From positions 744,001 to 808,000 of the forward strand of contig NZ_CP065521.1 in NCBI RefSeq assembly GCF_018986735.1: DNA of 64,000 bases. Reading direction: 5' to 3'. Source of the stretch: Schaalia sp. 19OD2882. GTDB lineage: Bacteria > Actinomycetota > Actinomycetes > Actinomycetales > Actinomycetaceae. The position numbers and the translations under genes were made by a program. Shown piece by piece: positions 13,627-40,018 of the stretch (position 1 is its first letter; every line of letters begins with the position of its first letter). The notes under the pieces were generated by a model that was not told the DNA's origin, ran no database searches, and worked only from the letters and a program-made list of their open reading frames with translations.

Positions 13627-14475
13627 TCAGGCCCCCTTGTAGACCTGGACAGCGGTGGGGCGCAGGATCGCGGCGCCGTAGACGTGCAGGCCGCGCACAC
13701 GGTCGGCGAATTTCTCCTCCGACCGCATCGCCTCGATCCTGTCGATCTGGGAGACGTAGGCGACCGAAGGCTTGTGAACGCCGATCGCTGTGGGCTTGGC
13801 GTTGTCCATCCACGGGGAGGTCACCACGTCGAAGCCCAGCAGGCGCCCGATCGCCGCCTCGCGCAGACCATCGGTCGAGTTGGAGGTGTCGAACGCGGTC
13901 AGCTTCGATCCGTCGGCGAGCAGACCCTGCTCGAACGCCGCATTGATGAACAGGACACGATCCGACTGGGGGACCTTGGCCGCCGACAGCGCGCCACGGG
14001 TGGCCAGGACGGCTGCGTAGGCAGACGGCCAATCGGTGACGGCCACCGTGCCCGGCATCACCGTCCCGTTCGCAGTGACCAGAGCGGTCAGGAACGCCTC
14101 GGCATCCTCGACCAGGCCGATGGCCGCCGAGCGCGTGTAGGCGTCGAAGGACGCCGCCGCCTGTGTGCGGTCGATGTCGTCGACCAGGAAATCGAAAGAC
14201 TTCTCCTGATCGACGACCAGGTCAATGCCCGTGTCAGCGAGGGCGTCCGGTGCGGTCGTGCGCGGAATCGTTCCGCCACCACCAGGTTTGGGAACGACCC
14301 CGGTCTTGTAGTCCTTGACCCTCACGTCAACGATCCCCGGGATGTGCACCTTCGAGCCCGACGACAAGGCGTCCTCGTACTCGCGATTGGTCAGGCCGGT
14401 GAAGACCGCCTGGTTGTGGAAGTTCTCGAGGATGGATGCGGACCAGACCTCGGGAATGAAGTGCTGCAAAGCCAT
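13627..14475 (-). CDS. Major capsid protein (P22-like/HK97 fold)
   Basis: The ATG at 14475 (MALQHFIPEVWSASILENFH) has GAAAGGGG upstream; an in-frame extension above it is not needed. The 282-aa protein contains SGSKVHIPGIVDVRVKDY, FDFLVDDIDRTQAAASFDAY and a C-terminal LRPTAVQVYKGA, the signature of P22-coat-like capsids in actinophages. It follows the scaffold gene and precedes the small capsid-adjacent gene. Confidence 0.85.
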   Translation of the reverse strand: MALQHFIPEVWSASILENFHNQAVFTGLTNREYEDALSSGSKVHIPGIVDVRVKDYKTGVVPKPGGGGTIPRTTAPDALADTGIDLVVDQEKSFDFLVDDIDRTQAAASFDAYTRSAAIGLVEDAEAFLTALVTANGTVMPGTVAVTDWPSAYAAVLATRGALSAAKVPQSDRVLFINAAFEQGLLADGSKLTAFDTSNSTDGLREAAIGRLLGFDVVTSPWMDNAKPTAIGVHKPSVAYVSQIDRIEAMRSEEKFADRVRGLHVYGAAILRPTAVQVYKGA

Positions 14476-14515
14476 CGCTTGGCCCCTTTCAATGTTGATC
14501 TTTTCTCGCCCGCTG

Positions 14516-15067
14516 TCAGCGGCCGAGCAGCGTGTCCAGGCGCCCCTCACGACGCGCCTTGTTGATCTCCTCCGGGGTCATCCCCTTCAGATCCTCACGA
14601 GTGAGCTGAGCAGCCCCCCGGATCTCGTCCCCGCGGTTGCCCGCGTGCGAGGCCGACGTCGAGGCCGGAGGCGCCGAATCCCCCGCGGCCTCCTGGACAT
14701 GCCCATGGAACGCGAGCAGCGCATCCGCCGACGCCATCAGCTCCTCCTCCGTCGTCCCGGACAGCAGATTGGCAGGTACGCCCTTCGATGCTGCGACACT
14801 CGCGCGCAGCAGCTGCGCCTCAGCCGATGCCGCACGCTTCTCGGCCGCCTCTCTGGCCTCCACAACCCGCTGCATTTCGCTCTTGGACTGCTCCTCGATC
14901 TCATCGAGGCGACGCGCCTTCTCCGCGTTCTCCTTCGCCTTCGCTTCGTTTCGACGCGACAGCGCCTTCCACTTCTCGGCCTCAGCCCGGTAGTCCACCG
15001 TTTCGGCGGCCTCGGACTCGACGGTTTCCTGCGGCGCCGCAGCCTGCTGTTCAGTCGTGTCACTCAT
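14516..15067 (-). CDS. Capsid scaffolding protein
   Basis: This 183-aa protein has a central coiled coil (residues ~26-90: WKALSRRNEAKAKENAEKAR) and a C-terminal TREDLKGMTPEEINKARREG, the hallmark end of many siphophage scaffolds. It guides capsid assembly and is not kept in the virion. The ATG at 15067 follows GGGAGAGGAAACC. A hairpin lies 30 bp upstream. Confidence 0.8.
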   Translation of the reverse strand: MSDTTEQQAAAPQETVESEAAETVDYRAEAEKWKALSRRNEAKAKENAEKARRLDEIEEQSKSEMQRVVEAREAAEKRAASAEAQLLRASVAASKGVPANLLSGTTEEELMASADALLAFHGHVQEAAGDSAPPASTSASHAGNRGDEIRGAAQLTREDLKGMTPEEINKARREGRLDTLLGR

Positions 15068-15097
15068 GGTTTCCTCTCCCGTTTCGGGTACGAAAAG

Positions 15098-15122
15098 AGG
15101 CCCCGCCTTTTCGGTAGGGCCT
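15098..15122 (-). terminator. Hairpin with T-run upstream of the scaffold gene
   Basis: On the minus strand AGGCCCTACC pairs with GGCGGGGCCT (one mismatch, one G-T pair, GAAAA loop), followed by CTTTTC. It lies in the 172-bp gene-free stretch between the MuF gene and the scaffold (15068-15239). It may attenuate transcription after the MuF-toxin gene; a separate scaffold/capsid promoter is not evident. Nothing else is recognised in the stretch. Confidence 0.55.
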
Positions 15123-15239
15123 TGAAACTCCGCCCAGCTGCCGCGGGCGGACATCTTCTGTTGGACGCAGCAAAAAGGTCAGGCGGCTGGCCTTCCCCAA
15201 ATGCCTTACGGCGACGGTGGGACGGCTGCCACCTGACAG

Positions 15240-16499
15240 CTACAGCGTACCACCACTTGTCGTGCGCGTCAGGCGCGTCAGCTCTCCTGCATGGTCGATC
15301 ACCATGATCTCGACGAATTTCTGACGCCCGAAGAATCGCCTCCGAATCTGCTCGAGTGCGACCTCATCAGAAAGCCCGCAGCGCCGCAGATCTATGACAA
15401 GGCGATCAGCTTGCTTTGCGCCTCGCTTGAACTGGTCAGAGATTGTGTTCCTCTCAGAGGACCCCCTGGGAGATTTGAACTCCCACACGTGGCCCTCGAT
15501 GATTGCGTCCGGGTTCTTGGCGCCCTTCTCATGCGAAAGCGGCCGAAATTCCACGTCGATGCCAGCAGCCGCCAGCGTTTCACCTGTGGCGATCTCGTGA
15601 GCTTTGACCTTGAGGCCGCGCGGAATTTTGACTTGGCCAAGCCCAGCACGTCTGGCGGCAGACTCTTCCGCTTTGTGCCCCTGGCGCTCGGCTTTCTTCG
15701 CCTTCTTGCGGCTCTTCGCTTTCGTCTCCTTGAAGGAGATGACCGGCCCGTATTCGCCATGCTCGGTTTCCAGAATCAAGTGACGATAGTCCGGCAGGCG
15801 CCCGCTCCTGTCAGACACGCCTGTGCGCGCTTCCACCACCTGATGTGCGCGCTCCAACGTCTCCTCGTCAATCACCTGACGCATCGCGAGTTCCGGCGGT
15901 AGGGGTCCCACATTGCAGTCACACCCCGGATGGATCGGCAGCAGGTCCTTCACGTGGTAGCGCTGCGTCGACGCAATCACGCACAGGGCGCAATTCTCGC
16001 GACCAGTGAGAATTCGCCGGTAGTACTGGCCGCCCATCGCGCGCATCGAATCGCGTGATTGAACGCGCTTTGCGTTCTGCATGTCCCCACCAATGAGCTG
16101 AATCAACCTCAGCTCCCCAGCGCGGACCGCAGCGTCCAGTGGTTTTCCTTCGGACAGCCCATTCCACACCTGCACGCCAGGACGCCGATACACGGCCTGC
16201 GGATCAACTCCCCGCAGCCCCGTGACCGCCTCCTCGTCGATGGGCGGAAGCGCGAGCTTCCACCCCAACTCGCGCGCACACTCGACCATGTAGGCGCGAG
16301 TGAGGTTCGCGGTCTGCAACTGGCCGGCACGAACGCGCGGCACGATCGCCGCGATCATCTCCTCGATCGCAGAATCCCGGTAGTAGGGCAGACTCGCCCA
16401 GACAGCGCGACCGAATGCTTCGACCGCCGACCGTATCTCGTGCACCTGAGCGTCGTAGACCTGGGCGAGCTCATCCAACCTGCCGACGTCAGGCATCAC
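15240..16499 (-). CDS. MuF-type head morphogenesis protein fused to a CdiA-like nuclease toxin
   Basis: Residues ~1-200 are a MuF/SPP1 gp7 head protein. The typical motif includes Cys170, Cys173, YHVKDLLPIHPGCDC (181-195). After a very basic linker (255-290) comes a C-terminal domain (~295-410) resembling the CdiA C-terminal tRNase fold: Glu302, NPDAII (Asp331), VWEFKSP (Glu340, Lys342) and QFKRGAKQA (Gln356-Ala364), giving a PD-(D/E)XK arrangement. MuF proteins with polymorphic toxin tails are known in temperate phages. The basic linker may be cleaved or aid delivery. GTG 16499 or ATG 16496 is the start, after AAGGGGTG. No immunity gene is recognised beside it. Confidence 0.8.
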   Translation of the reverse strand: MMPDVGRLDELAQVYDAQVHEIRSAVEAFGRAVWASLPYYRDSAIEEMIAAIVPRVRAGQLQTANLTRAYMVECARELGWKLALPPIDEEAVTGLRGVDPQAVYRRPGVQVWNGLSEGKPLDAAVRAGELRLIQLIGGDMQNAKRVQSRDSMRAMGGQYYRRILTGRENCALCVIASTQRYHVKDLLPIHPGCDCNVGPLPPELAMRQVIDEETLERAHQVVEARTGVSDRSGRLPDYRHLILETEHGEYGPVISFKETKAKSRKKAKKAERQGHKAEESAARRAGLGQVKIPRGLKVKAHEIATGETLAAAGIDVEFRPLSHEKGAKNPDAIIEGHVWEFKSPRGSSERNTISDQFKRGAKQADRLVIDLRRCGLSDEVALEQIRRRFFGRQKFVEIMVIDHAGELTRLTRTTSGGTL

Positions 16500-16628
16500 T
16501 CACCCCTTCATCCGAACGCCCTCCAGCCCTAAGACCTCGACCTCGGCCGTCAGATCGCCGGCATCCTCAGCCCACCCTCGCAGCCCGTGAAGACACGTCA
16601 GCGGAGCCGATCGGGGCCAGCTGCCCAC
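16500..16628 (-). CDS. Possible small gene overlapping the portal end (42 aa)
   Basis: A frame with a GTG at 16628 ends in TGA immediately before the MuF GTG. It would encode ...AEDAGDLTAEVEVLGLEG..., whose acidic end looks protein-like, but the ribosome site is weak. The first 60 bp overlap the portal gene in another frame. It could be a short leader that couples MuF translation. Confidence 0.3.
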   Translation of the reverse strand: MGSWPRSAPLTCLHGLRGWAEDAGDLTAEVEVLGLEGVRMKG

Positions 16629-17997
16629 CAGATTTCGGCTGAGGAGTCACCCCCTGCGCGGCCTGCAGGCCGAGCGCCAGAGCCATCTGCTCTTCCGCGC
16701 GCCGCTGCTTGTCCTGCGCAATCTGCTCAGGCGAATACCCCAGGATGTTCTCCTGAATCGTCTCCAACGCCTCGCCAGCACCCCTGGCCTGCGCAGCAGC
16801 CGCGTACCGCTCCGTCATGCTGATCGTCGCCGGCGGAGCGAACTTCGCCTCGACCGTCGCGCCATCCAGCTGCGCGCCCTCGATCTGCAGAGCGCGCACC
16901 AACATGACCGCGAGCGCGGGCTTGAAGCGGCGGATGCGGTCCTCTGCCTTGGAGACGAGTTGCGCCATGGGCTGTTCGGCTCCTGATGCGGACTGGTTCG
17001 CGGCGTCTGGGAGCATCGCGGAGAGCGGGGTGCGGGTGGCGCCTGCGAGTTCGCGCCAGTCGTCCTTCACGGCGCTGAGCATGGGGGTGAGGTCGACGGT
17101 CTGGGATTCCCAGATCTCCACGCCAGGTGGGAGTTCCCACAGGGCGCCTGGGCCGGGTTCGAAGATCGCCTGGTAGTCGATCTGGTCGCCCTTCTCGTCC
17201 GTGTCCGGCAGGCCAGGGGCGTCTGGCGAGGAGGCCTTGAGGGCGCGCTGCCTGTAGGTCTGCATCGCCATTGTGACGAGGCGGTAGAGGATGCCGGTGT
17301 TGATGCGGTCGATGATGCCCGTGTGGGCCTCGAACTCACCCATCTCGTCCTTGTTGACCAGGAGGATGACGGGCGGGTCTCCTGCGTACTCGGAGAGCCG
17401 GGTGATGTTCCAGTCTCCGCGGACACGTTCGATGAGTTTGGCGTCCCTGCCGTATGAGTCGCGCGCGTATTCGGCGCAGACGCCGTCGACCCACACGACC
17501 ATGTGGTCGGTGTGGTCCGACATGGTTCGCCAGACCTTGACGGCGGCCCGGGCTTTCCACGGGCGGACCGGGTCCGGCTCGGCGTAGAACTGCTCCGGCC
17601 GTTCCCGTGTGACGACGGCTTCCCCGTTGTCGTCGACGGTCTCCAGCATGTAGCCGACGCCGACGGTGAAGGCATCGCGAGCTGCGTCCTGGAAAGCGAC
17701 GTCAAGGCGGTTGTCCCGCCAGATCCGTCGCGCCTGTTCCGCGAGGGGCGAATCAGGTGAGTTGCCGACGAGGATCCCGTTCGGATGGATGCGCTCGGCC
17801 AGGGAATCGACGATGAGAGCGGCCGAGTTTGCCAAGGCGCGCCGCTGGAAGGCCGCCCATGACTTGCGCAGGTTCGGCCCCATCTCCGGTAGGGGAGCGT
17901 TGCCGTTGGTGTAGCCGCGCAGCCTGTCGATCCTGGGACGCGCCTTGTCCATCCGCTCGGTGAGGAAGGAGACCCACTGGTCCATCGTCTTCGGCAT
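16567..17997 (-). CDS. Portal protein (SPP1 gp6-like)
   Basis: This 476-aa protein begins MPKTMDQWVSFLTERMDKAR. It has the SPP1-type portal features RIDRLRGYTNGNAPLPEMGP near the N-terminus, VILLVNKDEMGEFEAHTGI in the middle, and a C-terminal stem/crown rich in Ala/Gln helices. It forms the dodecameric DNA entry ring and binds the terminase. Start and position next to the large terminase agree. Confidence 0.85.
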   Translation of the reverse strand: MPKTMDQWVSFLTERMDKARPRIDRLRGYTNGNAPLPEMGPNLRKSWAAFQRRALANSAALIVDSLAERIHPNGILVGNSPDSPLAEQARRIWRDNRLDVAFQDAARDAFTVGVGYMLETVDDNGEAVVTRERPEQFYAEPDPVRPWKARAAVKVWRTMSDHTDHMVVWVDGVCAEYARDSYGRDAKLIERVRGDWNITRLSEYAGDPPVILLVNKDEMGEFEAHTGIIDRINTGILYRLVTMAMQTYRQRALKASSPDAPGLPDTDEKGDQIDYQAIFEPGPGALWELPPGVEIWESQTVDLTPMLSAVKDDWRELAGATRTPLSAMLPDAANQSASGAEQPMAQLVSKAEDRIRRFKPALAVMLVRALQIEGAQLDGATVEAKFAPPATISMTERYAAAAQARGAGEALETIQENILGYSPEQIAQDKQRRAEEQMALALGLQAAQGVTPQPKSGGQLAPIGSADVSSRAARVG

Positions 17998-18020: not shown

Positions 18021-19688
18021 TCAGTAGATGCGGCGCGGGCGGCGCCTGGCCGTCTGCCTGGCGGCGCCCTTTCCGACGGCGTCGAGGCCCGCCTTGAACG
18101 CGAACATGGCGCCCCAGGCGGCGTCGATCTTGCTGCAGTCCTGATCGTCTGGCGGCTTGACGAGGACGTACCCGGCCTGCCTTGGCGCCTTACGCGCGTT
18201 GAGCAGGTGAGCAGTGAACGTCGGGTCCCCGTCGTAGGTGACCTCGCACAAGCGGATCGCGGAGAGCATGTCCGCGAAGTTTTGACACGTCTGCGAGACG
18301 TTGCGCTGCGGGTAGCGGATCGGCTCGCTGGCGCTGATCTTCGCTTTCAGGCGCCCGTGGTAGGCCGCCTCCCACTCCTTGACGAGCTGCGCCCACCCTG
18401 CCGACGGGTCAGCGTAGAAGCCAACGACATTGAACCGCTCGAACGCCGCCTTCACGGTCTGCTCGATCTCCAACTTGGGCGGCGTCCACCCCTCGCCCGC
18501 CGGCCCGTCAGGCTGGGACCAGATGCCCACCCTGAAAAAGTGCTTCTGTGTAACCGAGTACCCGATGAGGACCGTGGAGTCAGCGAGACCGATCTTGCGA
18601 CCCTCGGACCCGTCGAAGCCAAGCGTGATCGGCTCGGTCGATGACACGACCTTGGTGCGGTCCTCGATCGCCCGCAGCTCAGGCATCGACAGCCACGCGT
18701 CAGACGCCGACGTGATTTGGTTGAGGAAGTCGGACGACATCTGCGCCGGGTCGGCCGACGGCGCCCAGAACTCCGCAGTGATCGTCTCAAGATTCACCCA
18801 CCCAGGAGTGCACGGCGGATCGTGCAGCACGCACCCACGCGGATCTCTCGAGGAATCACCGTAGGCTACCCGCAGCCCCTCGATCAGACTGTCGTGGTCC
18901 GCCAGGTCCGTCGTCAGCGGCGCTTCCCGGTGATCGTAGAGAAGGGTCCTTGCGGCGAGCTCCTTCACCTTGCCAGCCGCGATGAGGTCCGCTTCCCTCG
19001 CTGTCATCTCAGCGACACTGCGCTCACCAACCGTGTACGCGTTCGGCGTTTCCACCGTGGTTCCGCCGACCTTCCGCGCGTTCGAGCGAAGAGTGCGCGC
19101 CAGCTTGATGCCCCCGTTGCCCGGCAGCCACGTCTCCGTCTGATCCATGACAGCGAACACAGCTCGAGCACCCTTGACCGACGTCGCGGACGAGGTGCGC
19201 GTCTCGATCCGGCCGCGCCGCAGCGCGACGAACGAGTCCATCACATCAAGCCTGTACTCGTCCTGTGCCGGCGAGCCACGCAGCATTTCCAACAGCGGGT
19301 CCCACGTGTTCGACGTCTGGTCATCAGTCGTCGCCGTCGCCTGCACCAGCGGTGTCCGCCGGGTCGACCACGGGACCCCCACGGGCTGACCCTGAGCGTC
19401 CCACCCGTCGCACAGGACCGGCCCCATGGCCTCCACAGCCGCCAAGGCCGCCACGAACGGCGACTTGCCCCACCCTCGAGGCCGCGACAGAACTCCGCGC
19501 GTCTTGACGCGCTCACAGGTGATCGGATCGACCTCGTAGAAGTTCACGAGGAAGTCCAACTGCTCCTGCGTCGGGACGAACGGCTCAGCGTTGTCAGTGT
19601 CCGGACGCAGCAGGTAGGCAGTCATCCAGTCCGCCACGTCGAACCCCAGCGTCGGGAACTCGTCCCCCTCGAGAGGCTTCCATGGCAT
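18021..19688 (-). CDS. terL: Terminase large subunit
   Basis: This 555-aa DNA packaging motor has an N-terminal ATPase with a Walker A-like SRPRGWGKSPF (residues 68-78), Walker B plus catalytic glutamate in VFAVMDQTETW, and a coupling region ~240-300. The C-terminal RNase-H-like nuclease starts at TLGFDGSEG, with a later acidic DQDCSKIDAAW. It is transcribed after the small subunit with 11 bp between. Confidence 0.9.
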   Translation of the reverse strand: MPWKPLEGDEFPTLGFDVADWMTAYLLRPDTDNAEPFVPTQEQLDFLVNFYEVDPITCERVKTRGVLSRPRGWGKSPFVAALAAVEAMGPVLCDGWDAQGQPVGVPWSTRRTPLVQATATTDDQTSNTWDPLLEMLRGSPAQDEYRLDVMDSFVALRRGRIETRTSSATSVKGARAVFAVMDQTETWLPGNGGIKLARTLRSNARKVGGTTVETPNAYTVGERSVAEMTAREADLIAAGKVKELAARTLLYDHREAPLTTDLADHDSLIEGLRVAYGDSSRDPRGCVLHDPPCTPGWVNLETITAEFWAPSADPAQMSSDFLNQITSASDAWLSMPELRAIEDRTKVVSSTEPITLGFDGSEGRKIGLADSTVLIGYSVTQKHFFRVGIWSQPDGPAGEGWTPPKLEIEQTVKAAFERFNVVGFYADPSAGWAQLVKEWEAAYHGRLKAKISASEPIRYPQRNVSQTCQNFADMLSAIRLCEVTYDGDPTFTAHLLNARKAPRQAGYVLVKPPDDQDCSKIDAAWGAMFAFKAGLDAVGKGAARQTARRRPRRIY

Positions 19689-32248: not shown

Positions 32249-33589
32249 GTGTTTGGCGCGAAGAAGGCAAGGATTCAGGAACTCGAGCAGAAGCTCGCCG
32301 TCGGTGAGAAGCAATACCTCGATGCACTGAGGAGCATCGAGGAGCTGCGTGGGATCCTCGAACGCACCGGCGGGGGCGATATCGTTCGGCTGCAAGCACT
32401 CGCCTCATCGATGGCCGCCGATCTCGAAGAACGCAAGACTGCTGGAGCGCGCGAGCTTGCCGACTTGGACGCACTTCTCGAAGCGCGTCGACGCGAGGCC
32501 GACACCATTGCCCAAGAGATCCGGGAGAAGCAGAAGGAACTGACCGCCCTTGGTAGCCGTATTGAGCATGTGCGAATCTTCTCCGAATTTGGCCTGAGCG
32601 AATACACCCATCCCGCTGAGTCCTCGGTCCAACTCGGTGACGAGCTCGCTAAAGTTCGATCCAGGATCAAGGAGATGATCCGCGCCAAGAGTGCCGTCGT
32701 TGCCAACACAGACTTCACGTTCAACGGCTCCAAAGCCCAAGGCCGCAAGTTCGTGTCCGACATGTCCAAGATGATGCTTCGCGCCTACAACGCCGAAGCT
32801 GAGAACTGCGTCCTCACCGTGAAGGCTGGGAATGGTGAAGCCGCGCAGAAGCGCCTCGAACGTGCTCGCGACCAGGTCAAGGCGCTCGGAAAGCTCATCA
32901 ACCTCCATATCAGTTCGCAGTATCACGCCCTTCGTCAGCGCGAGCTCATCTTGGCTCTGCGATACCTGAACGCAAAGAAGGCAGAGAAGGAGGCCGAGCG
33001 CGAAGAGCGCGCAAGGCTGCGCGAGGAAGCGCGAGCCCAGAAGGAGTTCGAGGCGGCGCGAGAGAAGCTCGCCAAACAGAAGGCGCACTACGAGAATGTT
33101 CTTGCCGCGCTCGAAGCGCAAGGGCGTGTCGACGAGGCGGCGCAGATCCGCGCCAATCTCACCCAGGTTGAAGCCGAGATTCAGTCCGTTGAATTCCGCG
33201 CCGCAAACATTCGGGCAGGCTACGTGTATGTCATCTCGAACATCGGAGCCTTCGGTGAACGCATGGTCAAAATCGGCATGACTCGACGTCTCGAGCCAAT
33301 GGACCGCGTGCGCGAACTCGGCGACGCATCCGTCCCTTTCAATTTCGACGTCCACGCCCTGTTCTTCTCCGAAGACGCAGTCGGAGTCGAGGCGGAACTT
33401 CACCGCCGCTTTGCTGATCGACGCGTGAACCGCATCAACGCGCGCCGCGAATTCTTCTGCGCCACCCCTGCTGAGGTCCGGACCGAGCTTGCCTCCATCG
33501 CCGGCAACCTCCTCGAATTCGTAGAAGAGCCTGAAGCCGAGCAATACCGCCTCAGCCAAGCCGAGGCCATGGCCAACGACAAGCTCTGA
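32249..33589 (+). CDS. DUF4041 plus GIY-YIG (Mug113/T5orf172) nuclease, SNIPE-like
   Basis: This 446-aa protein (GTG, GAAAGGA upstream) has an N-terminal coiled coil (residues 1-110), a DUF4041-type region (~110-240: EHVRIFSEFGLSEYTHP, SRIKEMIRAKSAVVANTDFT), a second coiled coil, and a C-terminal GIY-YIG nuclease starting at GYVYVISN (Gly324, Tyr325, Tyr327) with KIGMTRRLEPMDRVREL and AELHRRF. Proteins with DUF4041 and this nuclease include the anti-phage SNIPE system, which cuts entering phage DNA. No transmembrane helix is seen here. It sits beside the repressor in the lysogenic orientation. Confidence 0.75.
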   Translation: MFGAKKARIQELEQKLAVGEKQYLDALRSIEELRGILERTGGGDIVRLQALASSMAADLEERKTAGARELADLDALLEARRREADTIAQEIREKQKELTALGSRIEHVRIFSEFGLSEYTHPAESSVQLGDELAKVRSRIKEMIRAKSAVVANTDFTFNGSKAQGRKFVSDMSKMMLRAYNAEAENCVLTVKAGNGEAAQKRLERARDQVKALGKLINLHISSQYHALRQRELILALRYLNAKKAEKEAEREERARLREEARAQKEFEAAREKLAKQKAHYENVLAALEAQGRVDEAAQIRANLTQVEAEIQSVEFRAANIRAGYVYVISNIGAFGERMVKIGMTRRLEPMDRVRELGDASVPFNFDVHALFFSEDAVGVEAELHRRFADRRVNRINARREFFCATPAEVRTELASIAGNLLEFVEEPEAEQYRLSQAEAMANDKL

Positions 33590-36258: not shown

Positions 36259-36507
36259 ATGGTGGAGACGATCAAGGGCGTGTCAGCCACCGAAGAACAG
36301 ATTGCTTCCTGGGCTGAGGAAGCAGAGGTTGGGTGTGACGCCGAAGTCCTTCGCAGGCGCGGCCGGGGCCGGCCAAGGCGCGGAACGGCGCCGAGCAGGG
36401 TGGTCACGGTCCGATTCACTGAACAGGAGTTGGCCTTCATCGATGCCAAGGCGGCGCGGCTGAACAAGACGCGATCCGAGCTCTTGCGCGAAGCGGTGTT
36501 TGTGTGA
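36259..36507 (+). CDS. Ribbon-helix-helix antitoxin
   Basis: This 82-aa protein has a C-terminal RHH DNA-binding motif (RVVTVRFTEQELAFIDAKAA, RLNKTRSELLREAVFV) and an N-terminal acidic helix (TEEQIASWAEEAEVGCDAEV) that would bind a toxin. It is followed by the toxin gene with a GTGA overlap. TAATAC lies at 36244-36249, 9 nt before the ATG, so it is probably (nearly) leaderless and autoregulated. Confidence 0.75.
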   Translation: MVETIKGVSATEEQIASWAEEAEVGCDAEVLRRRGRGRPRRGTAPSRVVTVRFTEQELAFIDAKAARLNKTRSELLREAVFV

Positions 36508-36734
36508 AGATCTCGGTCCATGGCTCGGCTCGCAGACATGGAGTTTCGGATGTGGACATCGTGCAGGCGGCGACCTGGCCCATGTGGGTCGAGCCGCATG
36601 AAGAGGAGGATCTGCAGCGGGAGTCACGGCTGGGTTTCGACACGAATGGACGTCTTCTCGAAGTGGTTGTCCTCATCTTCGACAGTGGATGCGAACTGGT
36701 CGTTCATGCCATGAAGGCGGGTCGCCACCACTGA
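36504..36734 (+). CDS. Toxin of the RHH toxin-antitoxin pair
   Basis: The GTG at 36504 overlaps the antitoxin stop. The 76-aa product (KISVHGSARRHGVSDVDIVQ ... LGFDTNGRLLEVVVLIF ... HAMKAGRHH) matches the small actinobacterial BrnT/RelE-like toxins with an HGV-DxDI start and LLEVVV strand near the end. A ribonuclease role is inferred from the fold. Confidence 0.7.
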   Translation: MKISVHGSARRHGVSDVDIVQAATWPMWVEPHEEEDLQRESRLGFDTNGRLLEVVVLIFDSGCELVVHAMKAGRHH

Positions 36735-38800: not shown

Positions 38801-40018
38801 ATGAACATTCGTCGCGCATTCGGTGGCCGCGCCGCAGGTGCTGCCGCCATCTTCGCAACCGGAGCCATCCTCCTGTCCGCCTGCGGCGGCAGTGGTGCGG
38901 GTGGGGCCGGCTCGGACGCCACCGGCTCGGGCGCTTCGGCGCAGTCGGGCGACGCTTCGACCGGATTCTCGCTGGCCAAGGGCGACACCATCGGCGTGGC
39001 CATGCCCACCCAGACCTCCGAGCGCTGGATCGCCGACGGCAACGCGGTGAAGGAAGGCCTGGAGAAGGCCGGCTACAAGGTCGACCTGCAGTTCGCCAAC
39101 GACGACATCCCCACCCAGACCCAGCAGGTCGACCAGATGATCACCAATGGCGCCAAGGTCCTCGTCCTGGCCTCGATCGACGGCACCGCACTGTCCTCGC
39201 AGCTGGACAAGGCCGCCCAGGCCGGCATCAAGGTGATCTCCTACGACCGCCTGATCCGCGACAACAAGAACGTCGACTACTACGTCTCCTTCGACAACTA
39301 CAAGGTCGGTGTCGCCCAGGGCACCGCTCTGCTGCGCGGCATGGGCATCGTCGACAAGGACGGCAAGGAGGTCGCCGGACACCCGACCGGCCTGAACATC
39401 GAGCTCTTCGCCGGCTCCAACGACGACAACAACTCGCAGTTCTTCTTCAACGGCGCGATGGAGGCCCTCAAGCCCTACATCGACAACAAGACCCTGGTGG
39501 TCAAGTCCGGCCAGACCAACTTCGACCAGGTCGCCACGCTGCGTTGGCAGCAGGACGTCGCCCAGAAGCGCATGGAGGACCTCATCACCTCCACCTATGG
39601 TGGCGGCTCCGGCAAGATCGCCGGTGTCCTGTCTCCCTACGACGGAATCTCCCGCGGCATCATCACCGCTCTGCAGGGCGCCGGTTACGGCAAGGACATC
39701 GCCGCCGGACTGCCGATCGTCACCGGTCAGGACGCCGAGATCGCCTCGGTCAAGCTCATCAATGACGGTGTCCAGTCCTCGACCATCTTCAAGGACACCC
39801 GCTCCCTGGCCGAGCAGACCATCAAGACCGTGACCGCACTGGGTGAGGGCAAGGAGCCCGAGATCAACAACACCACCGACTACGACAACGGTGTGAAGGT
39901 CGTGCCGTCCTACCTGCTCGAGGTCAAGACGATCTTCAAGGAGGACATCGAGTCCGAGATCATCGGTTCGGGCTACTGGACCGCCGACGAGGTCAAGGCC
40001 GGCGTCGCCGCCAAGTGA
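38801..40018 (+). CDS. chvE: Sugar-binding lipoprotein of a ChvE-type ABC transporter
   Basis: This 405-aa lipoprotein has a signal peptide (residues 1-29) ending in the lipobox LLSAC and a Gly/Ser linker. The periplasmic-binding-protein 4 fold follows (TIGVAMPTQTSERWIADGNA, VLVLASIDGTALSSQLDKAA, NIELFAGSNDDNNSQFFFNG), as in ChvE/multiple monosaccharide-binding proteins. It captures aldoses such as L-arabinose, xylose or galactose outside the cell. GAGGAGA precedes the ATG. It is followed by mmsA- and mmsB-like genes. Confidence 0.85.
   Translation: MNIRRAFGGRAAGAAAIFATGAILLSACGGSGAGGAGSDATGSGASAQSGDASTGFSLAKGDTIGVAMPTQTSERWIADGNAVKEGLEKAGYKVDLQFANDDIPTQTQQVDQMITNGAKVLVLASIDGTALSSQLDKAAQAGIKVISYDRLIRDNKNVDYYVSFDNYKVGVAQGTALLRGMGIVDKDGKEVAGHPTGLNIELFAGSNDDNNSQFFFNGAMEALKPYIDNKTLVVKSGQTNFDQVATLRWQQDVAQKRMEDLITSTYGGGSGKIAGVLSPYDGISRGIITALQGAGYGKDIAAGLPIVTGQDAEIASVKLINDGVQSSTIFKDTRSLAEQTIKTVTALGEGKEPEINNTTDYDNGVKVVPSYLLEVKTIFKEDIESEIIGSGYWTADEVKAGVAAK

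Follow-up and report, generated by a model that had tools for sequence, protein, structure and literature searches.

The gene at positions 15240–16499 of the window (the whole stretch of 64,000 nucleotides analyzed here, from contig NZ_CP065521.1 of Schaalia sp. 19OD2882) encodes a MuF-like minor head protein that ends in a nuclease-like domain of the CdiA_C family (Pfam PF18451). On balance, we consider it probable that this head protein carries a virion-borne nuclease, probably a tRNase, that would act on infection. Toxins of the MuF type have been known for years, and they may serve as weapons, as lysogeny switches, or as takeover enzymes. Prophages with MuF–CdiA_C fusions, mostly without an adjacent antidote, together with a toxin-free relative (xhp1), offer a direct way to tell these roles apart. 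Early tRNA cleavage by an injected domain, if confirmed, would show that phage heads bring in toxin-family enzymes as a normal part of infection.

A CdiA_C domain at the end of a head protein

The open reading frame (ORF) lies on the minus strand, a point on which the first-pass annotation, which had located it, was silent. It contains 419 codons from a GTG, or 418 from the ATG that follows at 16496 (a GTG-ATG start). Since close relatives begin at the ATG, the codon after the GTG, a protein of 418 residues is likely. Its parts are the following (residues counted from the GTG).

15240..16499, minus strand: MuF-like minor head protein with CdiA_C nuclease-like domain (ORF; phrog_1522; Pfam CdiA_C)
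15732..16499, minus strand: MuF/VG15-like core, residues 1–256, a long helical region and then a Cys/His cluster (phage-record matches, alignment, VG15 profile)
15633..15731, minus strand: basic helical linker, residues 257–289 (predicted helix 260–283; predicted local distance difference test score, pLDDT, of the block about 65–77)
15264..15632, minus strand: CdiA_C PD-(D/E)XK nuclease-like domain, residues 290–412
15411..15596, minus strand: predicted active site Glu302, Asp331, Glu340-x-Lys342, and Gln363 (from residue conservation)

The Pfam CdiA_C profile matches residues 328–406 with E 1.8e-18 and 66.9 bits (curated cut-off 26.6), far above chance, so that the extra C-terminal domain proposed in the first-pass annotation is real. 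With E values up to 1 allowed, Pfam adds to the whole protein only a weak VG15 match, and an NCBIfam search of the protein gave no match. The PHROG family phrog_1522 (“head maturation protease”) matches residues 5–367 (E 5.7e-89). This profile (591 positions) extends into the toxin domain, where some phrog_1522 members may bear an extension. A chance or frameshifted ORF is ruled out by these E-values and by relatives with the same architecture, and a second protease as the extra domain is ruled out by its nuclease-like character.

The predicted C-terminal domain agrees with the fold of the solved family member 4g6v, and the PD-(D/E)XK signature (E302, D331, E340-x-K342, and the motif glutamine Q363) is present. 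The motif positions first reported (NPD ending at 331, WEFK at 339–342, QFKRGAKQ at 356–363) are correct. Residues 290–419 thus have the nuclease homology and fold match on which the initial proposal depended. That proposal, a fusion of a MuF-like head protein with a PD-(D/E)XK toxin domain of CdiA type, agrees with profile, fold, and conserved active-site residues. Residues D331, K342, and Q363 are invariant in the 12 rows found by profile. A larger set of 31 rows has D331 and K342 in all, Q363 in 30, and E302 in 27, with position 340 always acidic (24 E and 7 D); most of these rows come from scans whose patterns contained the active-site residues, which makes the set of 12 rows the less biased of the two. 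As modeled, the domain belongs to the CdiA_C (PF18451, Bp1026b) family and is a putative metal-dependent nuclease of PD-(D/E)XK type. By analogy, its target is probably tRNA: PF18451 appears with two tRNases in a review table (PMC9990079), and published work describes the domains of Bp1026b and SitA3 as tRNases.

The core, its relatives, and the carriers of the domain

The core matches 344 of 50,697 phage records and, among the matches listed (60 of the 344), all fall within residues 3–256. Five residues, C170-x2-C173 and H190-x2-C193-x-C195, are invariant in 33/33 aligned core rows and form a possible zinc-binding cluster. Although the window protein itself matches VG15 only at E 0.0036, 28 of the 33 core members match that family (best E 1.2e-9). 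Profile–profile comparison (hhalign) of the core gives prob 94.2 with VG15 carriers and prob 5.7 with Phage_min_cap2 carriers, the latter not significant. On sequence grounds, the core is a distant VG15 relative, and its probable link to MuF goes via VG15. We use the name “MuF-like” because the likeness to Phage_min_cap2 carriers and to Angel gp4 is not significant.

Among 81 sampled core relatives (xhp1 and 80 viral-contig loci, the best-scoring of 426), 80 are without the extra domain, xhp1 among them, and end 8–41 residues after the aligned core. The sample holds 41 distinct tails and many near-identical mycobacteriophages, and the toxin-bearing L050, known from another scan, lies outside it. 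The single exception is L084, on the same contig as L039. The common core thus reaches about residue 256, and not the residue ∼200 given in the first-pass annotation as the normal end of a MuF protein. Because the domain is missing from 80/81 sampled core relatives and is borne by other MuF carrier types, it is, judged by this distribution, an add-on to the core.

Within the host's family, 7/213 genomes have a core match. The window, G169 (a genome of the host's genus), G016, and G022 bear CdiA_C; the core of G126 runs into a different C-terminus, and G113 and G122 are fragments. A MuF-core stretch of the same family (L030:955-2319) has a different C-terminus, which contains an E-H-K motif and matches no Pfam family; its frame also runs through a repetitive stretch resembling a CRISPR array.

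The domain itself was surveyed by profile searches of genomes, by scans of viral and genome contigs, and in phage and plasmid records. Matches to CdiA_C occur in 11/213 genomes of the host's family (10 over the cut-off) and in 8/396 genomes sampled from the host's order (four are the same genomes as in the family set). The viral-contig scan yielded 15 loci of CdiA_C type and the genome-contig scan 17. Only two of the 50,697 phage records match the C-terminal domain, both of them MalagasyRose, and no plasmid record does at E 0.001. The carriers are of several types. Those of phrog_1522 type are the window, L039, L050, L054, L056, and L060; those of VG15 type are L034, L035 (with a CdiA_C score of 22.3 bits, below the cut-off of 26.6), L040, L049, L055, and MalagasyRose. 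Tested carriers of Phage_min_cap2 type are L041, L044, L047, and L059, and those of Phage_Mu_F type are L053 (over the cut-off of that family) and L052 (below it). Outside MuF proteins, CdiA_C occurs on a 964-residue WXG-like protein (L061, with WXG100 only at E 0.034) and on stand-alone proteins of roughly 130–170 residues.

The MuF proteins of L060 and L050, which are related prophages, are 90%–95% identical over their first 240 residues and 47%–63% from residue 321 on. At the DNA level, compared in bins of 200 bases, identity is 67% and 54% in the two bins that end the gene, 82% in the next bin, and 74% on average over the following 2.6 kb. The A. johnsonii and A. oris copies, on the other hand, are 95%–100% identical in the bins of the C-terminal domain. 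The GC content at third codon positions (GC3) of the gene in the window is 0.76 for residues 1–258 and 0.67 for residues 285–419, against 0.78–0.85 in the terminase, portal, scaffold, and capsid genes. Taken together, these values fit a domain that is movable and maintained.

Three stand-alone CdiA_C-like genes (L062:2334-2723, L067:1043-1552, and L069:3796-4200) are on contigs labeled Candidatus Saccharibacteria, for which binning errors are possible. Cultured Saccharibacteria live on Actinomyces or Schaalia hosts. A genome of the host's genus (G150) has a decayed CdiA_C copy (L011 / L025) with two in-frame TGA codons.

Genes next to the fusion

The fusion gene stands between the portal and scaffold genes, in the following order.

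18021..19688, minus strand: terminase large subunit (phrog_9, E 9.6e-53)
16567..17997, minus strand: portal protein, encoded immediately before the MuF gene (SPP1_portal, E 3.8e-18)
15155..15239, minus strand: gap to the next gene, 85 bases, with no room for an immunity gene
14516..15154, minus strand: head scaffolding protein, the next gene, its true start probably inside, near MSDTT (phrog_2592, E 2.6e-52)
13627..14550, minus strand: major capsid protein (Phage_capsid_4, E 2e-12)

There is therefore no immunity gene beside the fusion in the window. The same neighborhood was read at 21 MuF–CdiA_C loci. These are the carriers named above for the four MuF types, except L039 (where the contig ends), together with L043, L046, L048, and L051, which are counted with the Phage_min_cap2 type on their likeness to L047 or to one another rather than on individual Pfam scans. 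Left out were L042 (unclear), L033 (no MuF family match, the next ORF resembling the start of a scaffold), L014, L015, L016, L017, L021, L022, L045, and L058 (duplicates of loci in the set), the near-copies of L055 in one genome (L019 and L020), the decayed L025, and loci without a MuF N-terminus. The next genes were identified via PHROGs at 10 loci, via corresponding places at L054, L056, and L060, via annotation in MalagasyRose, and by eye at 7/21 (L034, L035, L043, L046, L047, L048, and L051). Small ORFs were ignored if GC3 minus GC2 (the same measure at second codon positions) was ≤0.12, a measure that says little at the low-GC loci L052 and L053.

At 17 of these 21 loci, no coding-like ORF intervenes, and the fusion leads straight to a scaffold gene, a gene in scaffold position, or a neck gene. 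The 10 representatives checked against PHROGs gave six scaffolds, two neck proteins, and two next genes (L041 and L044) that match only families of unknown function also matched by L059. The four remaining loci have an ORF in between.

L051:6540-7166, L048:6574-6990, and L043:4343-5116, opposite strand: membrane-like ORFs between closely similar MuF–CdiA_C genes and the scaffold (3/21)
L035:1763-2071: ORF of 102 residues abutting a VG15–CdiA_C fusion, in the position expected of an immunity gene (1/21)

The three opposite-strand ORFs were considered as cognate immunity genes and rejected, because the toxin domains are 88%–97% identical and yet the ORFs are unalike (those of L043 and L051 are similar solely in a stretch of 33 residues, with 70% identity). 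They look like exchangeable accessory genes. The ORF of L035 has no Pfam match and no relative among 168 loci or in the window, and a search of the host genome, run without a positive control, found no match to it. At the WXG-like L061, an ORF of 251 residues overlaps the end of the toxin gene by 4 bases; when the host genome was searched with this candidate immunity gene, a single weak match resulted (E 0.087). A search of the host genome for CdiI_4, also without a positive control, did not find it.

Genes that accompany the toxin were sought by comparing the window with three toxin-bearing relatives and xhp1, over 48 genes picked heuristically to the left of position 40,000 in the window (small genes may be missed). 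Two genes, g28 (DNA-binding-like, 271 residues) and g34 (ParB-like, 510 residues), are present in all three relatives and absent from xhp1; neither resembles an immunity protein. An unrelated immunity gene may act in trans. The missing downstream ORF weakens the membership of this fusion as a classical toxin–immunity system, but not the architecture.

Possible roles and comparison with known systems

The MuF toxins of temperate phages, to which the first-pass annotation had already alluded, were defined by Jamet et al. (2017), who proposed delivery with the phage DNA (PMC5576092). As in the window, the gene there directly follows the portal gene, and the C-terminal toxin domain is common to other toxin families (CdiA_C is also on L061 and on the contact-dependent inhibition, or CDI, toxin). 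The element there is a temperate phage or prophage, as is probable here too. Those toxins are mostly from Firmicutes, whereas here the host is actinobacterial, the core is VG15-like and of phrog_1522 type, and the next gene is a scaffold. A small ORF (<150 residues) follows 89.4% of 191 MuF toxin genes, which is usual but not universal, and the MuF-borne domains include cd13442, assigned to the Bp1026b CdiA-2 toxin (PMC5576092); we take cd13442 to correspond to PF18451 by way of 4g6v. The kind is thus already known, and the present case is set apart by its actinobacterial VG15-like carrier and by the missing neighboring antidote. No paper title on antidote-free MuF–CdiA_C fusions was found in the open-licence literature searched.

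The closest system in phage records is MalagasyRose gp9 (NC_073465, L083), annotated as a “capsid maturation protease and MuF-like fusion protein” (CdiA_C E 1.7e-14). The gene order is as here, with the portal before and an annotated scaffold after, but the N-terminus is of VG15 type and the C-terminal domain is 35.6% identical over the matched stretch. Other systems share either the toxin domain or the carrier. The CdiA-CT II toxin of B. pseudomallei 1026b (PDB 4g6v; PF18451) is delivered by CdiB/CdiA secretion and bound by the immunity protein CdiI; CDI systems use a two-partner secretion exoprotein, and the 419-residue head protein is CdiA-like in its toxin domain alone. SitA3 of Myxococcus xanthus has the same Pfam PF18451 toxin domain on an unrelated delivery protein, a lipoprotein passed by outer-membrane exchange (PMC8546572). 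Bxa (Bacteroides) and Apk2 are head-module MuF fusions with toxin domains that inhibit bacteria when expressed, but these are an ADP-ribosyltransferase and a (p)ppApp synthetase, not nucleases, and adjacent immunity genes neutralize them (PMC11699363, PMC12226406).

The explanation we favor would operate as follows. Through its MuF-like core, the protein would probably sit at the portal within the capsid in a single copy or in few copies, as suggested by SPP1 Gp7 (PMC5576092). It would reach the cell together with the DNA at infection, and cleavage of tRNA would slow translation early. This slowdown might either shift the cell to phage growth or lysogeny, or hurt rivals and host defense. The phage would survive by tolerating few molecules, by keeping the domain quiet until injection, or through protection from a gene not found here. 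We extend this only tentatively, as a possible but doubtful generalization, to MuF-linked CdiA_C domains at large. They would be widespread virion-injected nucleases that need no neighboring antidote, repeatedly taken up by at least four head-protein types as early-infection effectors. They would act within the host of the phage itself, with tRNA as the probable target, and in few-molecule doses that the phage survives; bacterial secretion systems would use the same domain as a weapon paired with an immunity gene.

Several observations weigh against a MuF-type, virion-borne tRNase of this family. The published catalytic lysine of CdiA-CT II, K242, aligns with K358 and not with the conserved K342, and K358 is not conserved (12 K of 31), so that chemistry or target may differ from Bp1026b. 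Other CDI toxins of PD-(D/E)XK type act as DNases. A Tox-CdiAC family is given by Zhang et al. (2012) as all-beta and metal-independent, which conflicts with the model if the family is the same (PMC3482391). Pfam gives no Phage_Mu_F or Phage_min_cap2 match to the core, and comparison of the core with Angel gp4 (the published MuF4 seed) gives hhalign prob 0.4 and no phmmer match. In the host's family, CdiA_C is present in 4/4 core matches that lie in a long open frame of the appropriate type, so the domain is not rare on the core there. Finally, comparing the left flank with the right part of the window, or with the neighboring tRNA-Thr, revealed no direct repeat that would mark an attachment site.

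A DNase instead of a tRNase, also virion-borne and attacking host, plasmid, or rival DNA after injection, is a reading that we hold unlikely. A classical polymorphic toxin serving as a weapon would reach competitors through virions or lysates, with the lysogen shielded by an immunity protein from elsewhere in the prophage or genome. Such a role was proposed by Jamet et al. (PMC5576092). It would suit a domain common to bacterial toxins (the 964-residue Terrabacter L061 with its overlapping ORF included), the ORF abutting the divergent VG15-type L035 ahead of the scaffold, and the concentration of differences between L060 and L050 in the toxin domain. The 85-base gap, the outcome of the host-genome searches given above for the L061 and L035 candidates and for CdiI_4, and the nature of g28 and g34 make it rather unlikely. 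The first-pass annotation had suggested either a weapon of the lysogen or a takeover nuclease; the lack of an adjacent immunity gene somewhat favors takeover, which does not decide between the two. Very unlikely, in our view, is a domain that is not catalytic in practice and has a structural or nucleic-acid-binding role in the head. It sits in a structural protein with no immunity gene adjoining, and an inactive nuclease-like domain is described in phage Mu F by a study of polyvalent proteins (PMC5512222). However, the active-site residues are conserved across carrier types, and the 80/81 core relatives without the domain mean that it is dispensable for the head.

The window lies within a chromosome of 2,563,835 bases. 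To its left and at its left end are two candidate genes of an integrated element.

G000:C1:742698-743369: tyrosine integrase match, with its end 769 bases from the left edge of the window, followed by tRNA-Thr
743-1429 of the window: excisionase-like gene

With the head genes, these suggest that the element is probably a temperate prophage. In the phage-like region, close to its right end, a T5orf172/DUF4041 protein (32249-33589, plus strand) matches the PADLOC system PD-Lambda-1 (E 1.4e-106) and is a candidate for anti-phage defense. At 36259-36734 (plus strand), a ribbon–helix–helix protein and an overlapping ORF of 76 residues are laid out like a small toxin–antitoxin pair.
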